A DNA stretch of 64,000 bases from Idiomarina sp. (GTDB taxonomy: Bacteria; Pseudomonadota; Gammaproteobacteria; Enterobacterales; Alteromonadaceae): assembly GCA_020831965.1 (NCBI GenBank), contig JAFIFP010000009.1, forward strand, positions 434,001-498,000, read 5' to 3'. The notes under the pieces were generated by a model. It made no database searches. It was not told the DNA's origin and worked only from the letters and a program-made list of their open reading frames with translations. Every line of letters begins with the position of its first letter. Within the stretch, counting starts at the first letter, position 1. The translations under genes and the position numbers were made by a program. Below are positions 3,770-45,961 of the stretch, piece by piece.

Positions 3770-6040
3770 CTACTTACCTGCCCGAACGAAACCACCTAAG
3801 CCTAAACTTTCCAATTTCATATTTACGACCCGCCGGACTTGATCCGGATGGCGCGCATTGAGCGCCTGACTGAGCAGAACCTGCAACATCGGCGCCTCTA
3901 CATTACGAACGATCCAACGAATTTTATCCAAATTGTGGCCACCCATACTCAGGGTGCGATACCCCATGGCAAGTAATAGCAATGCGCCACCGGGGTCTCC
4001 GGCAAGCTCACCACAAACACTGACCGGTTTTCCTAGCGCCTGACACTCTTCGATAATGCCTTTCAACGCCATCAATAGCGCTGGGTGATAGACCTCATAC
4101 AAACTCGCGACGCGCGCATTGTTACGATCAACGGCGAGCAAATACTGCGTCAAATCATTGGTTCCAACGGAAAAGAAGTCGACCCGTCGCGCCACCGCTT
4201 CGAGCTGATAGAGAATCGCCGGAACTTCAATCATGACACCTAACTGCGGGCGTTTCATATCGAGCCCCGGGTGTTTCTGCACCAGTTCATTGCGCACTTC
4301 GAAATAAGCCTGATTAATTAAGCGTGCAGACTCATCGATTTCATCCACCGAAGTGATCATGGGAAGCAAAATCTTCAGCGTATCGTGACCGACATTTGCC
4401 CGCAGCATCGCCCGTACTTGCACCAGAAAGATCTCTGGATGGTCGAGCGTCATCCGAATACCGCGCCAGCCCAAGAAAGGATTGTCTTCTTGAATCGGAA
4501 AGTAAGGTAAGGGTTTATCTCCGCCCACATCAAGCGTGCGCATGACCACTGGAGCACCCGCATAACTGTCGAGTACCTGGCGATAAAGCTGGAACTGCTC
4601 TTCTTCCGTCGGAAAACGATCGCGCATCATAAACGGAATCTCAGTGCGATACAGGCCAATGCCGTTGTGCTGACCTCGCGTCTCCCCATGCTCCACATTC
4701 AAGCCCGCATTAATTTGTAGCTCAACTTGAATTCCATCCTTGGTTTCTGCGGGAAGATCGCGATGTTGGCGAACAATGTCCGCCAATTCCTGTTCTTCCA
4801 ACAATAACGCTTCATATTCATGCAAGACTTGCGCAGGCGGGTTAACGAACACGTCGCCGCTGTAGCCGTCCACCACCAAAAATTGATCTTCAAGGTAGTT
4901 TAGCGGCACATCTTGAATACCGAATACCGCAGGAATTCCCATACTCCGCGCCATAATGGCCGCATGGGAGTTTGCCGAACCTTTCAGAGAGATAATGCCT
5001 TGGAGTTTGTCTCGAGGGATTGCAGCGAGCATACTCGCCGTCACTTCTTCAGCCACGAGAATACATTCTTCCGGAACTTCTAATTCGATTTTACGATGAT
5101 CTTGCAAGTGAGACAGTACTCGCTGTCCAAGATCACGCACATCGACGGCACGCTCTCGCAAGTAAGAGTCTTCAATTTCTTCAAACTGTGCCACAAAGCC
5201 TTCAACCACGACTTTTACCGCAGTTTGCGCCATCCAGCCTTCCTGAATTTTCGCTTCGACTGAATTTCCAAGGCTAGTCGCGTCTAGCATCCCTTGATAG
5301 ACATCAAAAATTGCGAGTGTGTCTTCGGCCACATGCTCTGCTACTTGGGCTGCCAAGGCTTTCAGCTCTTGGCGAGTTTCTATGACTGCCTTGCGAAACT
5401 TATGAATTTCACGCCAAGGATGTTCAGTTCGCCTTGGAACCACAGCACTGAGTCGCGCCGCAGGCTTGCCGATAAACGCGTGGCCGATGGCAACACCTGG
5501 AGCACCCGGTACCGCGGTGAGATTCCGCAACCAAGGCGAATGATGGCCCGCAACGAGGCCTTTCGCTTCAGCATGCGCAATGACGGCCGCAAGCTGGGCC
5601 GCCAAGGTTACAACAAAGGATTCTTCTTCACCTGAAAAAGCGCGGGCACTGCGTTGTTGCACTGCCAACACACCCAACACCTGACGTTGATGAATAATTG
5701 GTGCTACCAGCATGGCCCGGAAGGACTCTTCCTGAACGGCCTCAACCAGCTTGAAATTGGGATGTTTGGTGGCGTCGGCAACATTGAGGGGCTCCTCACG
5801 CTGCGCCGCCAAACTAATTAAGCCTTCGCCAAACGCCAGGGTGATGCGCTCGCCATCAGGCACATGCAAACCGTCGCTCGCCATCAGCACGAACTCTTTC
5901 GCATCGTGATCGGCGAGATAAACTGAGCACACTTCGCTGCCTAGCGCTTCTTTGACACGGGTCACCATGAGCTTGAGTGCGACCTCAAACTCGGGTGCCT
6001 GATTCACCGCTTCGACAATTCGCTGGAGCGTGCTTAACAT
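3770..6040 (-). CDS. ptsP: PTS-Ntr phosphoenolpyruvate-protein phosphotransferase (EI-Ntr)
   Basis: 756 residues. Domain order: N-terminal GAF domain (about 1-165), EI N-terminal HPr-binding region, swivelling phosphohistidine domain with H359 in KGSANSHAAIMARSMGIPAVFG, and the C-terminal PEP-binding TIM barrel (RTEIPFMMRDRFPTEEEQ, then SVGTNDLTQYLLAVDRNN and GELAGDPGGALLLLAMGYR). It passes phosphate from PEP to NPr and then EIIA-Ntr in the nitrogen PTS, a regulatory chain sensing glutamine/2-oxoglutarate through the GAF domain in E. coli. NPr and EIIA-Ntr genes are not in this window. It lies 5 bp from rppH, the conserved rppH-ptsP pairing. Confidence 0.97.
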   Translation of the reverse strand: MLSTLQRIVEAVNQAPEFEVALKLMVTRVKEALGSEVCSVYLADHDAKEFVLMASDGLHVPDGERITLAFGEGLISLAAQREEPLNVADATKHPNFKLVEAVQEESFRAMLVAPIIHQRQVLGVLAVQQRSARAFSGEEESFVVTLAAQLAAVIAHAEAKGLVAGHHSPWLRNLTAVPGAPGVAIGHAFIGKPAARLSAVVPRRTEHPWREIHKFRKAVIETRQELKALAAQVAEHVAEDTLAIFDVYQGMLDATSLGNSVEAKIQEGWMAQTAVKVVVEGFVAQFEEIEDSYLRERAVDVRDLGQRVLSHLQDHRKIELEVPEECILVAEEVTASMLAAIPRDKLQGIISLKGSANSHAAIMARSMGIPAVFGIQDVPLNYLEDQFLVVDGYSGDVFVNPPAQVLHEYEALLLEEQELADIVRQHRDLPAETKDGIQVELQINAGLNVEHGETRGQHNGIGLYRTEIPFMMRDRFPTEEEQFQLYRQVLDSYAGAPVVMRTLDVGGDKPLPYFPIQEDNPFLGWRGIRMTLDHPEIFLVQVRAMLRANVGHDTLKILLPMITSVDEIDESARLINQAYFEVRNELVQKHPGLDMKRPQLGVMIEVPAILYQLEAVARRVDFFSVGTNDLTQYLLAVDRNNARVASLYEVYHPALLMALKGIIEECQALGKPVSVCGELAGDPGGALLLLAMGYRTLSMGGHNLDKIRWIVRNVEAPMLQVLLSQALNARHPDQVRRVVNMKLESLGLGGFVRAGK

Positions 6041-39217: not shown

Positions 39218-39435
39218 CCCAGATTGGGGTCAGATGAATAAATAAGGCACTAAACCTATGAAAAATATAGAAATGCCTAGTTTGGGGTCAGACCCTAAAC
39301 TTTGGGGTCAGATCAACTAAATTTAGTAACCCGTTGATTTAACGTGATTTCGAAAATTGGCAGTACGCTCTAGGCCGCATTTCTCCGTTTGTTCTGACCC
39401 CTGTGGATAACTTGAAATTCGACTCTGACCCCAGT
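39218..39435. repeat. MITE-like element, copy A
   Basis: Begins at 39218 with a conserved terminus (CCCAGATTGGGGTCAGATGAA minus the last base: key core GGGGTCAGATGAA, 39226-39238), followed by two more direct cores (39284-39292 and 39304-39312), and inverted cores TCTGACCCC at 39393-39401 and 39424-39432. The inner sequence aligns with copy B (ATGAAA...AGAAATGCC, GGGGTCAGATCAAC). It has no ORF. The right end is degraded compared with copy B. Likely a small non-autonomous transposable element or REP-like repeat. Confidence 0.65.
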
Positions 39436-41479: not shown

Positions 41480-41670
41480 CCCAGAATGGGGTCAGATGAA
41501 CTTAAATTGACCTAACCCCATGAAATGTAAAGAAATGCCAAATTAGGGTCAGAACAACATTTATGGGGTCAGATCAACTTAACAAAATTAAATCACTGAT
41601 AAATAAAAACTTTAGTAATTGCGTAGCGCTGGAGGCCACGTAAAAAATGTTCATCTGACCCCAATCTGGG
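41480..41670. repeat. MITE-like element, copy B
   Basis: 191 bp bounded by 21-bp inverted ends (41480-41500 and 41650-41670) that match at 20 of 21 positions; the core is GGGGTCAGATGAA. The left end of copy A (39218-39238) is identical to the complement of the right end of copy B. Two more direct cores (GGGTCAGAACA at 41546, GGGGTCAGATCA at 41565) lie inside. No ORF. The right end stops 12 bp before the -35 region of a candidate ECF promoter (41683). Confidence 0.7.
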
Positions 41671-41681
41671 TTCCTATCTTG

Positions 41682-41711
41682 GGGAATAGTTGTGGGGGGT
41701 GGGGCGTTGTC
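41682..41711 (+). promoter_or_regulatory. Candidate ECF-sigma promoter of the Ala-rich exported protein gene
   Basis: GGGAATA at 41682-41688 and CGTTGTC at 41705-41711. Both boxes are identical to those of the sigma-factor operon promoter (44699-44705, 44721-44727); the spacer is one base longer. It is about 50 bp before the ATG at 41760. Confidence 0.6.
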
Positions 41712-41759
41712 CTTATGTCCCGTGGGACAGATGTTTACAACCAGATGAAGGAGGCTATG

Positions 41760-42188
41760 ATGAGCCTATTCAAGAAAACTACAGTTGCTGCGATTGCAGG
41801 CATGTTTAGCTTAAGCTCTTTTGCGCTCTTGGCGGACACCAATGAAGCTGATACGGAGGCAAATGCCAACGCGCGTGTTGGATTGAATGTATCTAGTGCT
41901 GTCCGAGAAGCTCGTGAAAATGGTGAGTCGGTAAGCGAAGCCGCATTATCCATCACCAGCGATCTTGCAGCGGAAGCACGTGAACAAGGAGAAGCACGCG
42001 GTGAAGATGCTCGCGCTGCAGCACGGGAGTTGCGTGAAACCATTCGTGATCTTACACGCAGTGAAGCACGTGCCGAAGCTAACGCATCCGTTGGTCGCGA
42101 GATCTCTGCTGAGGCCAGTGCATCAGCTCGCCTTGATGTTCGCCAATCGGTAAGAGATCGCGTTCGCCGTCCAGGCCGTGGTGACTAA
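41760..42188 (+). CDS. Exported Ala/Glu/Arg-rich coiled-coil protein
   Basis: 142 residues from ATG at 41760, 5 bp after GGAGG (41750-41754); ATG 41757 is too close. Signal peptide MSLFKKTTVAAIAGMFSLSSFALLA, then a low-complexity, highly helical chain with repeated AREARE/ARAEA patterns (SVSEAALSITSDLAAEAREQGEARGEDARAAARELRETIRD) and a basic end (VRDRVRRPGRGD). It has no recognised family and no cysteine. A U-rich terminator follows. Probably periplasmic; could act as a chaperone-like or envelope-binding amphipathic helix, by inference only. Confidence 0.7.
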   Translation: MSLFKKTTVAAIAGMFSLSSFALLADTNEADTEANANARVGLNVSSAVREARENGESVSEAALSITSDLAAEAREQGEARGEDARAAARELRETIRDLTRSEARAEANASVGREISAEASASARLDVRQSVRDRVRRPGRGD

Positions 42189-42222
42189 TCCAGTGCTATC
42201 ATTGAGCACCAGTAAGAAAGAT

Positions 42223-42248
42223 AGGAGCGGCAACGCCGCTCCTTTTTC
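42223..42248 (+). terminator. Terminator of the Ala-rich protein gene
   Basis: AGGAGCGGC (42223-42231), short AAC loop, GCCGCTCCT (42235-42243) followed by TTTTT. A classic intrinsic terminator. Confidence 0.9.
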
Positions 42249-42287
42249 CATACATTCGCAATAGCATCACTTTCCTTGGAGCACGTT

Positions 42288-43199
42288 ATGGCAACGCTAC
42301 ATCGACTTCCTTCGGCCCCCACCTTGGGCCTCTCACTTGCCGCGCTCGCTGTCCACACCCTGTTTATCGCTCCCGTGGCGGCTGATGAAATCAAATCTAA
42401 CTGGCAAGGCGACTTCGCGGCTGGTATCGAACACAACAGTAATGTCAGCATTGAAGATCTCGACACGGCTACGGAACAAAGCGACTCGGCTTTTAGTTAT
42501 GAATTGAATCTATCAGCGGACTGGCTATTCCCTTCTGGCTGGCGACTTGAGGCGGGTTACCACCTCAGCGCACTCAAGTATCAAGAGCTTGATGCCTTTG
42601 ACCTGCAACTACAACTTATACACGGTGATCTAAGTTATGCATGGGATGATTGGACGTTAGGACTCAACACCTTTCTCGGCGACGTCAAACTCGCCAACGA
42701 GAAATTCATGGATCTACAACATGTGATGCTATATGCCGGGCGCTTATTTCTGGAGCGCGGCTACGCTAACTTTTGGGTTCGAAGCGTAGATAAAGACTTC
42801 GCGATATTCTCAGGACGTTCTGGTAAGCAGGATGGGCTTGGTGTCGACGTTTACTGGTTCTCTCCCAGTACACAACAAAATCTTATGGTTGGTCTGAGTC
42901 AACTTAAAGAATCCACGGATGATCCGCAATTTAGTTACGATGCTACCACTATTCGTGTGCGCTACAGCGCGACATCTGAACGTGTCGACTGGCGCATTGG
43001 CGTAAGATGGCAGTCGCGCGACTACCAATTCACGAATCGAGATGACCGTCTGCTCAATGCTGAACTGGGCGCAGACTGGCACTTAACATCGCGTTTAAGC
43101 CTGCTGACTCAACTGGAATGGGGCGACTTTGACTCTACTTTTGCGCCAGCAGATTACCAAGAAACACGCGGCTCGATTCTGCTCAGAGTGAATTTCTAA
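42288..43199 (+). CDS. Outer-membrane beta-barrel protein
   Basis: 303 residues from ATG at 42288 (GGAG 8 bp before). Signal peptide to about residue 32 (HTLFIAPVAADE). The mature part is a run of amphipathic strands with alternating hydrophobics and aromatics (e.g. WQGDFAAGIEHNSNVSI, WRLEAGYHLSALKYQ, WTLGLNTFLGD), and the chain ends in RVNF with terminal Phe, the signal for BAM-mediated insertion. It has no recognised family; length and strand count suggest about 12-14 strands. Its 3' end overlaps the protease gene by 17 bp. May be an envelope partner of the S8 protease. Confidence 0.8.
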   Translation: MATLHRLPSAPTLGLSLAALAVHTLFIAPVAADEIKSNWQGDFAAGIEHNSNVSIEDLDTATEQSDSAFSYELNLSADWLFPSGWRLEAGYHLSALKYQELDAFDLQLQLIHGDLSYAWDDWTLGLNTFLGDVKLANEKFMDLQHVMLYAGRLFLERGYANFWVRSVDKDFAIFSGRSGKQDGLGVDVYWFSPSTQQNLMVGLSQLKESTDDPQFSYDATTIRVRYSATSERVDWRIGVRWQSRDYQFTNRDDRLLNAELGADWHLTSRLSLLTQLEWGDFDSTFAPADYQETRGSILLRVNF

Positions 43200-44610
43200 G
43201 CAAAGGAGTCACTAAACCAAACCCAAACACAGGATCGACACCGGGCGCGCCCAAATCATAAGCATTTTCCCGTAAATAGGAACGAGCCGAGGCGATGGAA
43301 TGCCCTTGCGCAAGCTGACATGCAAGTAATGCAGCCACTACCGGTGCAGCCATTGAAGTGCCGCTCTCAAGGCCGACCCGGCCCCCGGCTATGGCCGTCG
43401 GTACATCCACACCCCAAGCACTAAACTCAATATAGTCACCATGGTTAGCCCATCGGTAGCTTTCACCATGACGATCGGTCGCAGTCACCGCGATCACTGC
43501 AGGATAGGCCGCAGGAAAAGCGGGTGCCGCACTCGGTCCACCATTTCCAGCCGCAGCGATAATTAACACCTCTTGTTCCGCAAGCTGATTAACTGCCCGC
43601 GCGAGCACGCGATTGTCAGGCCCGGTAAGGCTCATATTGATTACTTGCACACCCTCTGCCGCCATCCAATTTAACGCGGACAATAGCTGATTTAACGCAG
43701 CTCCCTCTAAGCCCTCATCTTGCGCATAAAAGACAGACGCATTAAGCAGCTGCCCCACAGGTAAAAGGGGAGAAACATTAGGTCCCTCTCCCAGTAATAC
43801 CCCTGCAACTGCAGTGCCGTGACGCAATGGCTCGGCCAGGTTAGCGGTTGTAAAACTCCGTTGCACAATGCGAGCAGCGCTCGATTCTAGCAACGGGTGT
43901 TGTGTATCAATAGCTGTATCAATCACTCCCATAACCACGGGCTCCGAACACACAGCGCTATGACGCAAGGGAAAAGGCGACGCTAGCCTAGCATCGCCAC
44001 CCAGCTGTGTTGAGTACACATAATTAGGCTCTAATACTTCCCACAATGCCTCTGGCAAAACCTGTTGCAACGCATCACGGGAGTTGAGCTGCGCTGGCAC
44101 ACGAAGCCGCACAAGCTCCAAGTCAAGTGCGCCGAGCGTCTCGGTCTCTTGCACATATTCGAGCACAGCTCTTAATTGAGAACGTTCGGCGGGGCTAATC
44201 ATTAGCACCCACTCGCGCTCAATCACCCGCACCCCTGGGCGCACCTCGATGTCGCGAAATAGCTCCCTGCCCGCTTGGTCACGCACAATGATTTCAGCTG
44301 GCAACTCTCGGAAACCGGCAGGTCCCAAGTTAGGGATTCGTTCTAGTCGCTGGTTCGCAATAGCAGCCGGACCACCACGTAGCAATGCCGCCATTGCGGC
44401 TCGCTCAGCCGCTTGTTCTGCTCGATCTTGCGCGCGCTCAACTTGACGAGTCGCGCGTTCTGCCTGGCGTTCAATCACATGTTCAGGAATCCGATCGACA
44501 GGTCGAGGAAGAGGAGGGACGCGCGGGCCTTCTTGACTCAGAGCCACAGGCGCAACGCTGCACAGCAAAGTACAGAGTATCAAGGTGCTACAAAACGTTT
44601 TTCCTGTCAT
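43183..44610 (-). CDS. Exported subtilisin-like (S8) serine protease
   Basis: 475 residues. Signal peptide at about 1-25, then an Ala/Glu/Arg coiled coil (ERQAERATRQVERAQDRAEQAAERAAMAALL, about 47-77), an N-terminal propeptide-like domain to about 215, and a subtilase domain with D231 (GVIDTAID), H264 (RHGTAVAGV), oxyanion N356 (AAAGNGG) and S419 (GTSMAAP). Predicted to be exported and to process envelope proteins. It is divergent from the ECF sigma/anti-sigma operon; its own upstream region carries the same sigma-type boxes. Confidence 0.92.
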   Translation of the reverse strand: MTGKTFCSTLILCTLLCSVAPVALSQEGPRVPPLPRPVDRIPEHVIERQAERATRQVERAQDRAEQAAERAAMAALLRGGPAAIANQRLERIPNLGPAGFRELPAEIIVRDQAGRELFRDIEVRPGVRVIEREWVLMISPAERSQLRAVLEYVQETETLGALDLELVRLRVPAQLNSRDALQQVLPEALWEVLEPNYVYSTQLGGDARLASPFPLRHSAVCSEPVVMGVIDTAIDTQHPLLESSAARIVQRSFTTANLAEPLRHGTAVAGVLLGEGPNVSPLLPVGQLLNASVFYAQDEGLEGAALNQLLSALNWMAAEGVQVINMSLTGPDNRVLARAVNQLAEQEVLIIAAAGNGGPSAAPAFPAAYPAVIAVTATDRHGESYRWANHGDYIEFSAWGVDVPTAIAGGRVGLESGTSMAAPVVAALLACQLAQGHSIASARSYLRENAYDLGAPGVDPVFGFGLVTPLLRNSL

Positions 44611-44666
44611 AGTCGCAAAGCTGCCCTGAGTGGTACAAAGTTATAGAATGGAAGTTATAAAATAAT

Positions 44667-44691
44667 AACGGATCAGCGTTAAAAAAATTCC
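44667..44691 (-). promoter_or_regulatory. Candidate ECF-sigma promoter of the S8 protease gene
   Basis: On the minus strand GGAAT (44691-44687), 16-bp spacer, CGTT (44670-44667). The spacing equals that of the divergent sigma operon promoter; the two -35 boxes face away with an 8-bp gap. Confidence 0.6.
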
Positions 44692-44698
44692 GCGGTGT

Positions 44699-44727
44699 GG
44701 GAATAAAGTCCAAATCCAGTCGTTGTC
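44699..44727 (+). promoter_or_regulatory. Candidate autoregulatory ECF promoter of the sigma operon
   Basis: GGGAATA (44699-44705), 15-bp spacer, CGTTGTC (44721-44727); measured from GGAAT to CGTT the spacer is 16 bp, as in the protease promoter. It is 27 bp before the sigma ATG at 44754. It is not a sigma-70 type promoter, and autoregulation is the rule for ECF operons. Confidence 0.6.
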
Positions 44728-44753
44728 ATATTAAAACACATAGGAATGCCTCG

Positions 44754-45239
44754 ATGCATGAGCAATTGACTGAATTGATTTCGCCCTTGCGGCGCTTCGC
44801 CTACTCGCTAACAAGTTCAATGGCAGACGCCGATGATCTTGTGCAGATGACTGTAGAGCGGCTATTGACTCGGGATATTCCTGATGATGCCACCTTGTCT
44901 CAATGGGCCTTTCGTATTTGTCGCAACCTCTGGATTGACGAGCATCGCGCTCGTCAGGTGCGCCTTCGCGCCGCACAAAACCCCGATTTACAAGGTAACA
45001 GCACCGTCACTCAAAGCACTGAGCATGAAATCGAGCTCACGCAAACGCAAGCGGCGATGGCTGAACTGCCACCCGCCTACCGAATGGTTCTATCAATGGT
45101 GGCTATCCAAGGGCTTTCCTATCAGGAAGTCGCAGACGCATTAGATATTCCTGCAGGAACCGTGATGAGTCGTGTGGCCCGAGCACGAATAAAACTTGTC
45201 GAACTACTGAACCCACCTCAACGAGGAGCCCAAGCATGA
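44754..45239 (+). CDS. ECF-type RNA polymerase sigma factor
   Basis: 161 residues from ATG at 44754 (AGGA 8 bp before); the frame opens at 44697 but that includes the promoter. Region 2 LISPLRRFAYSLTSSMADADDLVQMTVERLL, region 4 LPPAYRMVLSMVAIQGLSYQEVADALDIPAGTVMSRVARARIKL. It overlaps the anti-sigma gene by 4 bp. Predicted to direct RNA polymerase to the GGAAT/CGTT promoters nearby. The inducing signal is unknown; context suggests envelope stress. Confidence 0.9.
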   Translation: MHEQLTELISPLRRFAYSLTSSMADADDLVQMTVERLLTRDIPDDATLSQWAFRICRNLWIDEHRARQVRLRAAQNPDLQGNSTVTQSTEHEIELTQTQAAMAELPPAYRMVLSMVAIQGLSYQEVADALDIPAGTVMSRVARARIKLVELLNPPQRGAQA

Positions 45240-45961
45240 ATATTTCCGATCAAGATCTCAGCGCCTTCCTCGATGGTGAACTTAAACCAGCAGACATGAC
45301 GCGTGTGCGCGATGCCATTGCCGAAGACGAAAGCCTAGCCGATCGACTCGCAGCCATTGCGATGGCTGACCAAGCGTTTCGTTCAAGTGCTGCCAACATT
45401 GACGATGCCCCGCTTTCACCGAGACTGGAAGCACTCGTCGCAAGTGCTCAGCAAGCACAAAGCTCACCGCAGGATAATCTTGTCCAGTTTAAGCCGAAAC
45501 AGCGCAGGTCTTCGTGGCAGGTCATGCAAGTGGCTCAAGCAGCAAGTTTCGCCGCTATCATGCTCATTGCAGGTTTCTCTCTGGGCAATCTGTCGGGCAC
45601 TTCCGACACTCAGTCCTGGCATGAAGTAGCACAGATTCTCGAAACTCGCGCAAGTGGCCGTGAGTACTCACTGAGCCAAGGCAGCATCCGCCCACAACTT
45701 ACATTTCAAACGCAAGAAGGTGTTCTGTGTCGGCAATTTCAACAGACCACACAGTATCAAACCGAGAACCGCATTGCCTGTCGCCAAGCAGATGAGTGGA
45801 CTCTGATGGCCAGCGTACCAACCGCACGAACTTCGGACGCAGTCTATCAAGTGGCCTCTGGCAATCAATTGTTGGATACACTGATTGATCGCATCATTGT
45901 TGGCGCCCCACTGACCCATCAGGACGAGGCGCAACTCTTGCGCCAACAATGGCAGCCATAA
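45236..45961 (+). CDS. Transmembrane anti-sigma factor
   Basis: 241 residues. N-terminal anti-sigma domain (MNISDQDLSAFLDGELKPADMTRVRDAI), one TM about 99-117 (QAASFAAIMLIAGFSLGNL), and a periplasmic domain of about 120 residues with two cysteines (VLCRQF and RIACRQA) that could form a disulfide. Coupled to the sigma by ATGA. The stop codon is within a 15-bp tandem duplication (ATGGCAGCCATAAAA at 45949-45963 and 45964-45978). Confidence 0.88.
   Translation: MNISDQDLSAFLDGELKPADMTRVRDAIAEDESLADRLAAIAMADQAFRSSAANIDDAPLSPRLEALVASAQQAQSSPQDNLVQFKPKQRRSSWQVMQVAQAASFAAIMLIAGFSLGNLSGTSDTQSWHEVAQILETRASGREYSLSQGSIRPQLTFQTQEGVLCRQFQQTTQYQTENRIACRQADEWTLMASVPTARTSDAVYQVASGNQLLDTLIDRIIVGAPLTHQDEAQLLRQQWQP

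Follow-up and report, generated by a model that had tools for sequence, protein, structure and literature searches.

Comparative evidence for an ECF26-type sigma factor module joining a divergent S8 protease to an exported repeat protein and an outer-membrane barrel in Idiomarina and related bacteria

The closest described relatives of the gene cluster considered here belong to ECF26, a group of extracytoplasmic function (ECF) sigma factors that is called poorly characterised, with sulfite oxidation as its best-known output, in the excerpts of PMC3511301 on which we draw; according to the same excerpts, sulfite-generating compounds elicit a response of the ECF26 members RpoE1 and RpoE4. A second source, likewise used in part (PMC6180224), reports that overexpression of RpoE6 in Sinorhizobium meliloti induces SMa0142, lists the SMa0142 promoter as GGAATA...CGTT, and gives GGAATA/GT as the cross-species ECF26 consensus; in those parts, a serine protease gene divergent from the sigma gene, as at rpoE6, is widely kept among ECF26, and RpoE6 itself could not be assigned a functional role. 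Here we analyze a stretch of 64,000 nucleotides (nt) from an Idiomarina sp. genome of 2.67 Mb (contig JAFIFP010000009.1, positions 434,001 to 498,000; hereafter, the window), in which genes for an ECF sigma factor and a putative membrane anti-sigma factor diverge from a gene for a secreted S8 protease and lie close to genes for an exported alanine-rich protein and an outer-membrane beta-barrel. We consider it likely that these genes form a self-amplifying envelope-response module under an ECF26-type sigma factor, an assessment that includes the functional roles proposed further below.

The ECF sigma gene (44754..45239 of the window, + strand), whose identity is confirmed by Pfam (Sigma70_r2/r4_2), overlaps the putative anti-sigma gene (45236..45961, +) and points away from the S8 (subtilisin-type) protease gene (43183..44610, −). 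Two ECF-type promoter sequences lie between the divergent genes, each with a spacer of 16 nt: that of the S8 gene (GGAATTTTTTTAACGCTGATCCGTT, 44667..44691, −; −35 box at 44687-44691, −10 box at 44667-44670) and that of the sigma/anti-sigma operon (GGAATAAAGTCCAAATCCAGTCGTT, 44700..44724, +; −35 box at 44700-44704, −10 box at 44721-44724). A further sequence of the same type, with a 17-nt spacer, precedes the exported-protein gene at 41760..42188 (+) (GGAATAGTTGTGGGGGGTGGGGCGTT, 41683..41708, +; −35 box GGAAT at 41683-41687, −10 box CGTT at 41705-41708). The initial annotation of this DNA had pointed to three such GGAAT-N16/17-CGTT sites, the third with one extra spacer base, and to an 8-bp gap between the divergent −35 boxes; the sites are present as described, and the gap falls at 44692..44699. 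The barrel gene (42288..43199, +) has no promoter motif of its own in the window; it sits 3' of the exported-protein gene, past a terminator-like hairpin and T-run (42223..42247, +; z −4.0).

The significance of these sites comes from their conservation across loci, and not from any single genome. We compared the best 80 of 156 sigma-related loci, picked by sigma similarity, together with 10 loci of relatives, and reduced them at 85% sigma identity to 66 non-redundant loci; the motif was counted as GGAAT-N15-18-CGT[TC], with distances measured from first possible start codons, so that some sites fall inside overlong frames. A divergent S8 gene is present in 52 of the 66 loci, an anti-sigma match in 56, and a same-strand upstream barrel in 37. 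The search for the motif upstream of the same three genes in relatives, which the initial annotation had proposed, finds it conserved before all of them: before the sigma gene in 47/52 loci with a divergent S8 gene (0.46 loci expected by chance from first-order shuffles), before the S8 gene in 33/52 (0.50 in the same shuffles), and before the exported-protein gene in 31/35 (27/31 plus 4/4; 0.24 loci in shuffles of the 31). The last class comprises 31 loci and four more (L031, L032, L035 and L037) that were read through duplicates; its shuffle expectations were computed on 31 of the 35 regions for the motif and on 30 for the hairpin, and two loci were left out of the 31, one in which the repeat protein was not found (L036) and one carrying a DUF5666 protein (L038). 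Where no divergent S8 gene is present (n = 14), the motif precedes the sigma gene in five loci.

The geometry of the divergent pair is conserved as well. Among the 31 loci having both motifs, the facing −35 boxes lie 8-10 bp apart in 27, and the remaining four have gaps of 4, 22, 25 and 37 bp. The S8 site of the window reads GGAATT, as do most S8 sites, and in the S8 sites with a spacer of 16 (n = 21) T occupies each of the first six spacer positions in 15-21 sequences. This T-rich start places an A-tract near the position of an upstream promoter (UP) element of the sigma promoter, and we infer that it may work as one.

The genes also occur together in genomes that were drawn without regard to them. 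We took an even draw of 118 genomes from the host family, chosen independently of the module genes, and searched them with profiles built from module members. The top classes for the sigma, S8 and barrel profiles each contain 23 genomes, and these are identical; a strong match was defined by chosen cuts of 1e-30 for sigma and 1e-40 for S8 and, in the case of the barrel, by a gap in the E values, from 6e-61 to 2e-16, that was noted once the results had been viewed (top-class matches at E <= 6.3e-61, next best 1.9e-16). Any barrel match at 0.001 occurs in 49/118 genomes, the weaker ones being longer frames that are apparently other barrels. In 22 of the 23 genomes sigma, S8 and barrel lie within approximately 5 kb of each other, and in the 23rd (G123) barrel and sigma fall on separate contigs, both of them close to an end. 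Of these genomes, 20/23 have the motif ahead of the sigma gene and 12/23 ahead of the S8 gene. A same-strand exported low-complexity protein lies beside the barrel in 16/23, in every case (16/16) with the motif at most 110 nt from its first possible start; one further genome (G018) has a DUF5666 lipoprotein with the motif upstream, and in six family loci no barrel partner was identified.

Module loci are found in Marinobacter, Alteromonas, Microbulbifer, Kangiella, Pseudohongiella and Cellvibrio. Within the genus of the window the module is patchy, since the sigma factor occurs (E < 1e-40) in 8 of 17 genomes. Five loci show other gene orders (L070, L073, L098, L101 and L112); the barrel is near the sigma gene in all five and S8 in four, the S8 gene not being seen on the short contig of L070. 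Among the six family loci with no identified barrel partner, two (L171 and L174, from genomes G144 and G068) have a motif that lies approximately 82 nt from the barrel and points away from it, toward a long exported-looking frame in the divergent direction (921 and 677 aa, respectively), which is perhaps a third kind of partner. Two more of the six (L172 and L175) have a pair of motifs, one directed at the barrel and the other at a divergent DNA-polymerase-like frame.

Judged from its sequence, the sigma factor is ECF26-like: its kinship, the divergent protease and the promoter consensus all agree with that group. It shares 40.6% identity with S. meliloti RpoE6 over 155 positions (E 1e-26), a divergent serine protease is present both in the window and in the 52 loci counted above, and a −35 GGAATA with a −10 GT fits the window and the compared sites. 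The RpoE6-EcfR6-SMa0142 system likewise combines a homologous sigma factor, a homologous S8 protease behind a GGAATA...CGTT promoter, and a downstream anti-sigma with the same cysteine pair. It differs from the window as follows: neither the exported repeat protein nor the barrel has a match at E 0.001 in the 25-kb stretch around rpoE6, and no strict motif facing the sigma gene was found beside the S8 promoter, so that by this strict motif there is no back-to-back pair. A site GGAATAAC...CGTT (L121, 9455-9479, on pSymA) lies close to the end of rpoE6, ahead of ecfR6; it also occurs in the S. fredii locus (L122, 6469), and the S. meliloti site is noted in the consulted parts of the S. meliloti paper (PMC6180224). 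In the tree that includes 20 other ECF factors, the window sigma stands beside Pseudohongiella and not beside its own genus (support 88/49; 83/86 in an earlier tree, now superseded), a placement that may, with weak support, reflect horizontal transfer.

A second point of comparison is the general stress response of EcfG/ECF15, which is regulated through NepR/PhyR. The window differs in having a membrane anti-sigma instead, and its −35 box is of the GGAAT type, unlike the AAC type of EcfG promoters. The −10 CGTT is shared, according to the part of PMC8103513 that we use, and the excerpted S. meliloti work reports that the RpoE6 regulon overlaps that of RpoE2, an ECF15 member (PMC6180224).

These comparisons bear on the earlier suggestion that the combination of genes is not a described system. 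The sigma factor, the anti-sigma, the divergent protease and the promoter consensus correspond to the ECF26 arrangement as it appears in the consulted parts of PMC6180224; the exported protein and the barrel are the part for which the suggestion stands, as we found no description of them as ECF26 targets in the part of the open-licence literature that we searched. By sequence comparison, the sigma-protease half of the module is of a known kind, and the exported-protein/barrel half looks like a new addition.

The exported protein has a signal-peptide-like start and a C-terminal four-residue repeat, with approximately 142 aa in the window and approximately 140 to 430 aa in the compared loci. A run of V/I/L/A at an exact spacing of four exceeds composition shuffles (p <= 0.05) in 35/35 non-redundant loci; the run is 9 long in the window (p 0.008) and reaches 37. 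At E 0.001 the window protein has no hit in Pfam or NCBIfam, and no two of the 34 members scanned have a family in common at that threshold, the few hits being single weak matches to Apolipoprotein, OprF and sll1863_fam. A terminator-like hairpin lies 3' of the gene in 22/35 loci (18/31 plus 4/4), compared with 0.70 expected in the 30 shuffled regions; its position before the barrel gene suggests that the exported protein would be made in excess over the barrel. In L038 and in two Oceanospirillaceae loci, L109 and L110, the slot of the repeat protein next to the same barrel and sigma genes holds a DUF5666 protein (10, 5 and 5 matched copies in Pfam, respectively), in each case with the ECF motif upstream. 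The protein in L111 resembles these by eye, and its gene showed no strict motif upstream. The DUF5666 lipoproteins of L038, L109 and L110 are unlike the repeat protein in having unrelated domains in place of helical repeats.

The barrel is modeled by AlphaFold with 14 strands at a mean predicted local distance difference test score (pLDDT) of 93.2, and its C-terminal third matches Pfam BBP2_2 (PF10082; 26.4 bits, gathering cut-off 23.7). In strand number and overall fold it is like the monomeric porins OmpG and CymA; the likeness is one of fold only (8-12% identity, template-modeling scores of approximately 0.5-0.6), with FadL, an autotransporter barrel and further porins at a similar rank. 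Sequence homology to OmpG or CymA was not apparent in this fold search (the barrel sequence itself was not searched against solved structures). We dropped the attempt to read a function from the fold matches, which indicate a generic porin fold.

The S8 protease (Pfam Peptidase_S8, E 3.6e-32) has an N-terminal tail, a conserved propeptide-like region, and a catalytic triad (D231, H264 and S419) that is invariant in 16 sequences; it aligns with the SMa0142 frame on pSymA at 37% identity over 350 positions (E 4e-49). The initial annotation had likened a coiled coil in the protease to one in the exported protein. This feature is weak in the window, with a longest four-spaced run of 5 (p 0.27), and S8 tails with four-residue runs at p <= 0.05 number 10/53. 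Five loci (L038, L068, L098, L101 and L103) have very long four-residue runs (23-38), hydrophobic or acidic, in their S8 N-terminal tails; these recall the exported proteins, and the feature is not general.

The anti-sigma factor remains putative, an identity that depends on position and conservation. The initial annotation had placed a membrane anti-sigma beside the sigma factor, and the adjacency, the gene overlap and the conservation agree with it; the family matches are sub-threshold only (RseA_N and zf-HC2 in Pfam, and an NCBIfam anti-sigma entry below its cut-off). Judged by eye, the protein has a single hydrophobic stretch near residue 105. Its two presumably periplasmic cysteines (Cys165 and Cys182) are both present in 57/58 aligned anti-sigmas, the exception being a Phaeobacter homologue. 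S. meliloti EcfR6, assigned by position, has both; a search of the 25-kb RpoE6 stretch with the window anti-sigma gave no match to EcfR6 at E 0.001, and the S. fredii counterpart does match.

In the module as we envisage it, the sigma factor would be held at rest by the membrane anti-sigma, and a periplasmic signal, probably sensed by the conserved C-terminal domain of the anti-sigma with its cysteine pair, would release it. Freed sigma would then transcribe its own operon and the S8 gene from the back-to-back promoters with −35 boxes 8-10 bp apart, and also the exported repeat protein and, by read-through past the hairpin, the barrel. Most likely, the repeat protein would serve as a protective polymer, abundant at the surface or in the periplasm; the barrel would be its partner in the outer membrane or its way out, and the S8 protease would mature or clear it. 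A regulon of this composition is well supported by comparison, drawing on the homology, the conserved promoters, the co-occurrence, the promoter geometry, the hairpin and the cysteine pair. The induction of the homologous divergent protease by RpoE6 in S. meliloti also speaks for the module. The use of these promoters by this sigma factor in this species, the way in which the signal is read and all functions of the exported products are proposals. The three conserved promoters and the shared 23/118 genomes strongly support the earlier description of an envelope regulon that is self-contained and run by a single ECF factor.

Several observations weigh against this picture. The full order of barrel, S8 and anti-sigma is present in only 36/66 loci, some contigs ending early. 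S8 genes have no motif in 19/52 loci and in 11/23 family loci, and sigma genes none in 3/23 family loci. The repeat protein is missing or replaced in 7/23 family loci and absent from at least one sigma-bearing genome of the window's own genus (G010), and it is therefore not a core component; its AlphaFold model (helices H30-54, H58-80 and H82-136) is of low confidence, with a mean pLDDT of 68. The tree places the window group and RpoE6 on one side against the 20 other ECF factors with support of 89/86, which is not decisive. A link between S8 tail and exported protein was also considered, as matched pairs are more alike than permuted ones (0.335, 0/5000); we rejected this covariation as a specific link, since the S8 catalytic domain gives nearly the same value (0.321), and most of it therefore reflects lineage composition. 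A residual signal of 0.256 persists after regression on three components, and the repeat-run lengths are not significantly correlated (rho 0.20, p 0.30).

The motif itself is unremarkable within a single sequence. The window holds 6 matches, compared with 2.26 expected (spacers 15-18), and 2/100 shuffles reach 6; genome-wide there are 50 matches and 50 in the reversed control, and in view of this lack of enrichment we dropped regulon prediction from the motif alone. The equality of genome and control would suit an explanation in which the sites arise by chance or serve a different sigma factor, and in which the genes do no more than travel as a group, as would the presence of other ECF factors in the genome, one of them with a similar upstream site (G000:C9:127227). 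A conservation roughly two orders of magnitude above chance, the fixed −35 spacing and the RpoE6 precedent speak against it, and we regard it as very improbable. The similar site, GGAATAAA...CGTT, lies approximately 50 nt upstream of a second ECF/anti-sigma-like pair (L154, G000:C9:123500-131500; open reading frames 3802-4329 and 4326-4781), beside which lie a lipoprotein-like frame of 811 aa and a further exported frame.

Other explanations accept the regulon and assign its parts differently. S8, barrel and exported protein might be mainly signaling parts: S8 would cut either the anti-sigma, at site 1, or the exported protein, and the state of the outer membrane would be reported by the barrel and its partner, so that the whole would be a positive-feedback sensor and not a coat or export system. 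The presence of S8, sigma and barrel in the same 23/118 genomes, the divergent S8 gene with its promoter of the same type, and the conserved S8 active site would all be consistent with such a circuit; on the other side, site-1 proteases are not usually secreted subtilisins with a propeptide-like region, and a repeat protein with its own promoter and a hairpin behind it would suit a bulk product. On balance we find the circuit unlikely. The cysteine pair could be a redox switch, compatible with the envelope-response module itself, in which reduction or sulfitolysis of a disulfide frees the sigma factor in answer to reductive or sulfite stress. Its occurrence in nearly all aligned anti-sigmas, including EcfR6, and the response of RpoE1 and RpoE4 to sulfite-generating compounds in the excerpts cited above (PMC3511301) favor this idea. 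A literature search for such a sensor brought up no paper, and the role of the pair may be structural alone; for the pair taken by itself, a structural disulfide is as possible as a sensor of redox state or sulfite, and as an account of the switch we hold the redox idea to be quite doubtful. The most far-reaching proposal, which we put forward tentatively and think has a minor chance of being right, is an undescribed surface-assembly pathway made of barrel, four-residue-repeat protein and S8, in which the cargo slot is exchangeable and takes either the repeat protein or a DUF5666 lipoprotein; it would have an ECF26 switch with an anti-sigma that senses a periplasmic disulfide, and mutually exclusive back-to-back promoters that balance switch against protease.

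Just 5' of the exported-protein promoter lies an element resembling a repetitive extragenic palindrome or miniature inverted-repeat transposable element (REP/MITE; 41480..41670), which probably stands outside the regulon. Its 22-nt inverted ends (41480-41501 and 41649-41670) are 95% complementary, a further copy lies at 39226-39317, and the genome contains its core word GGGGTCAGATGAAC 11 times, the reversed control 0 times.

Returning to the envelope-response module, its promoter code is clear and its organization compact, and it names likely targets for ECF26 sigma factors. Those likely targets would include a class of exported proteins built on a strict four-residue repeat.

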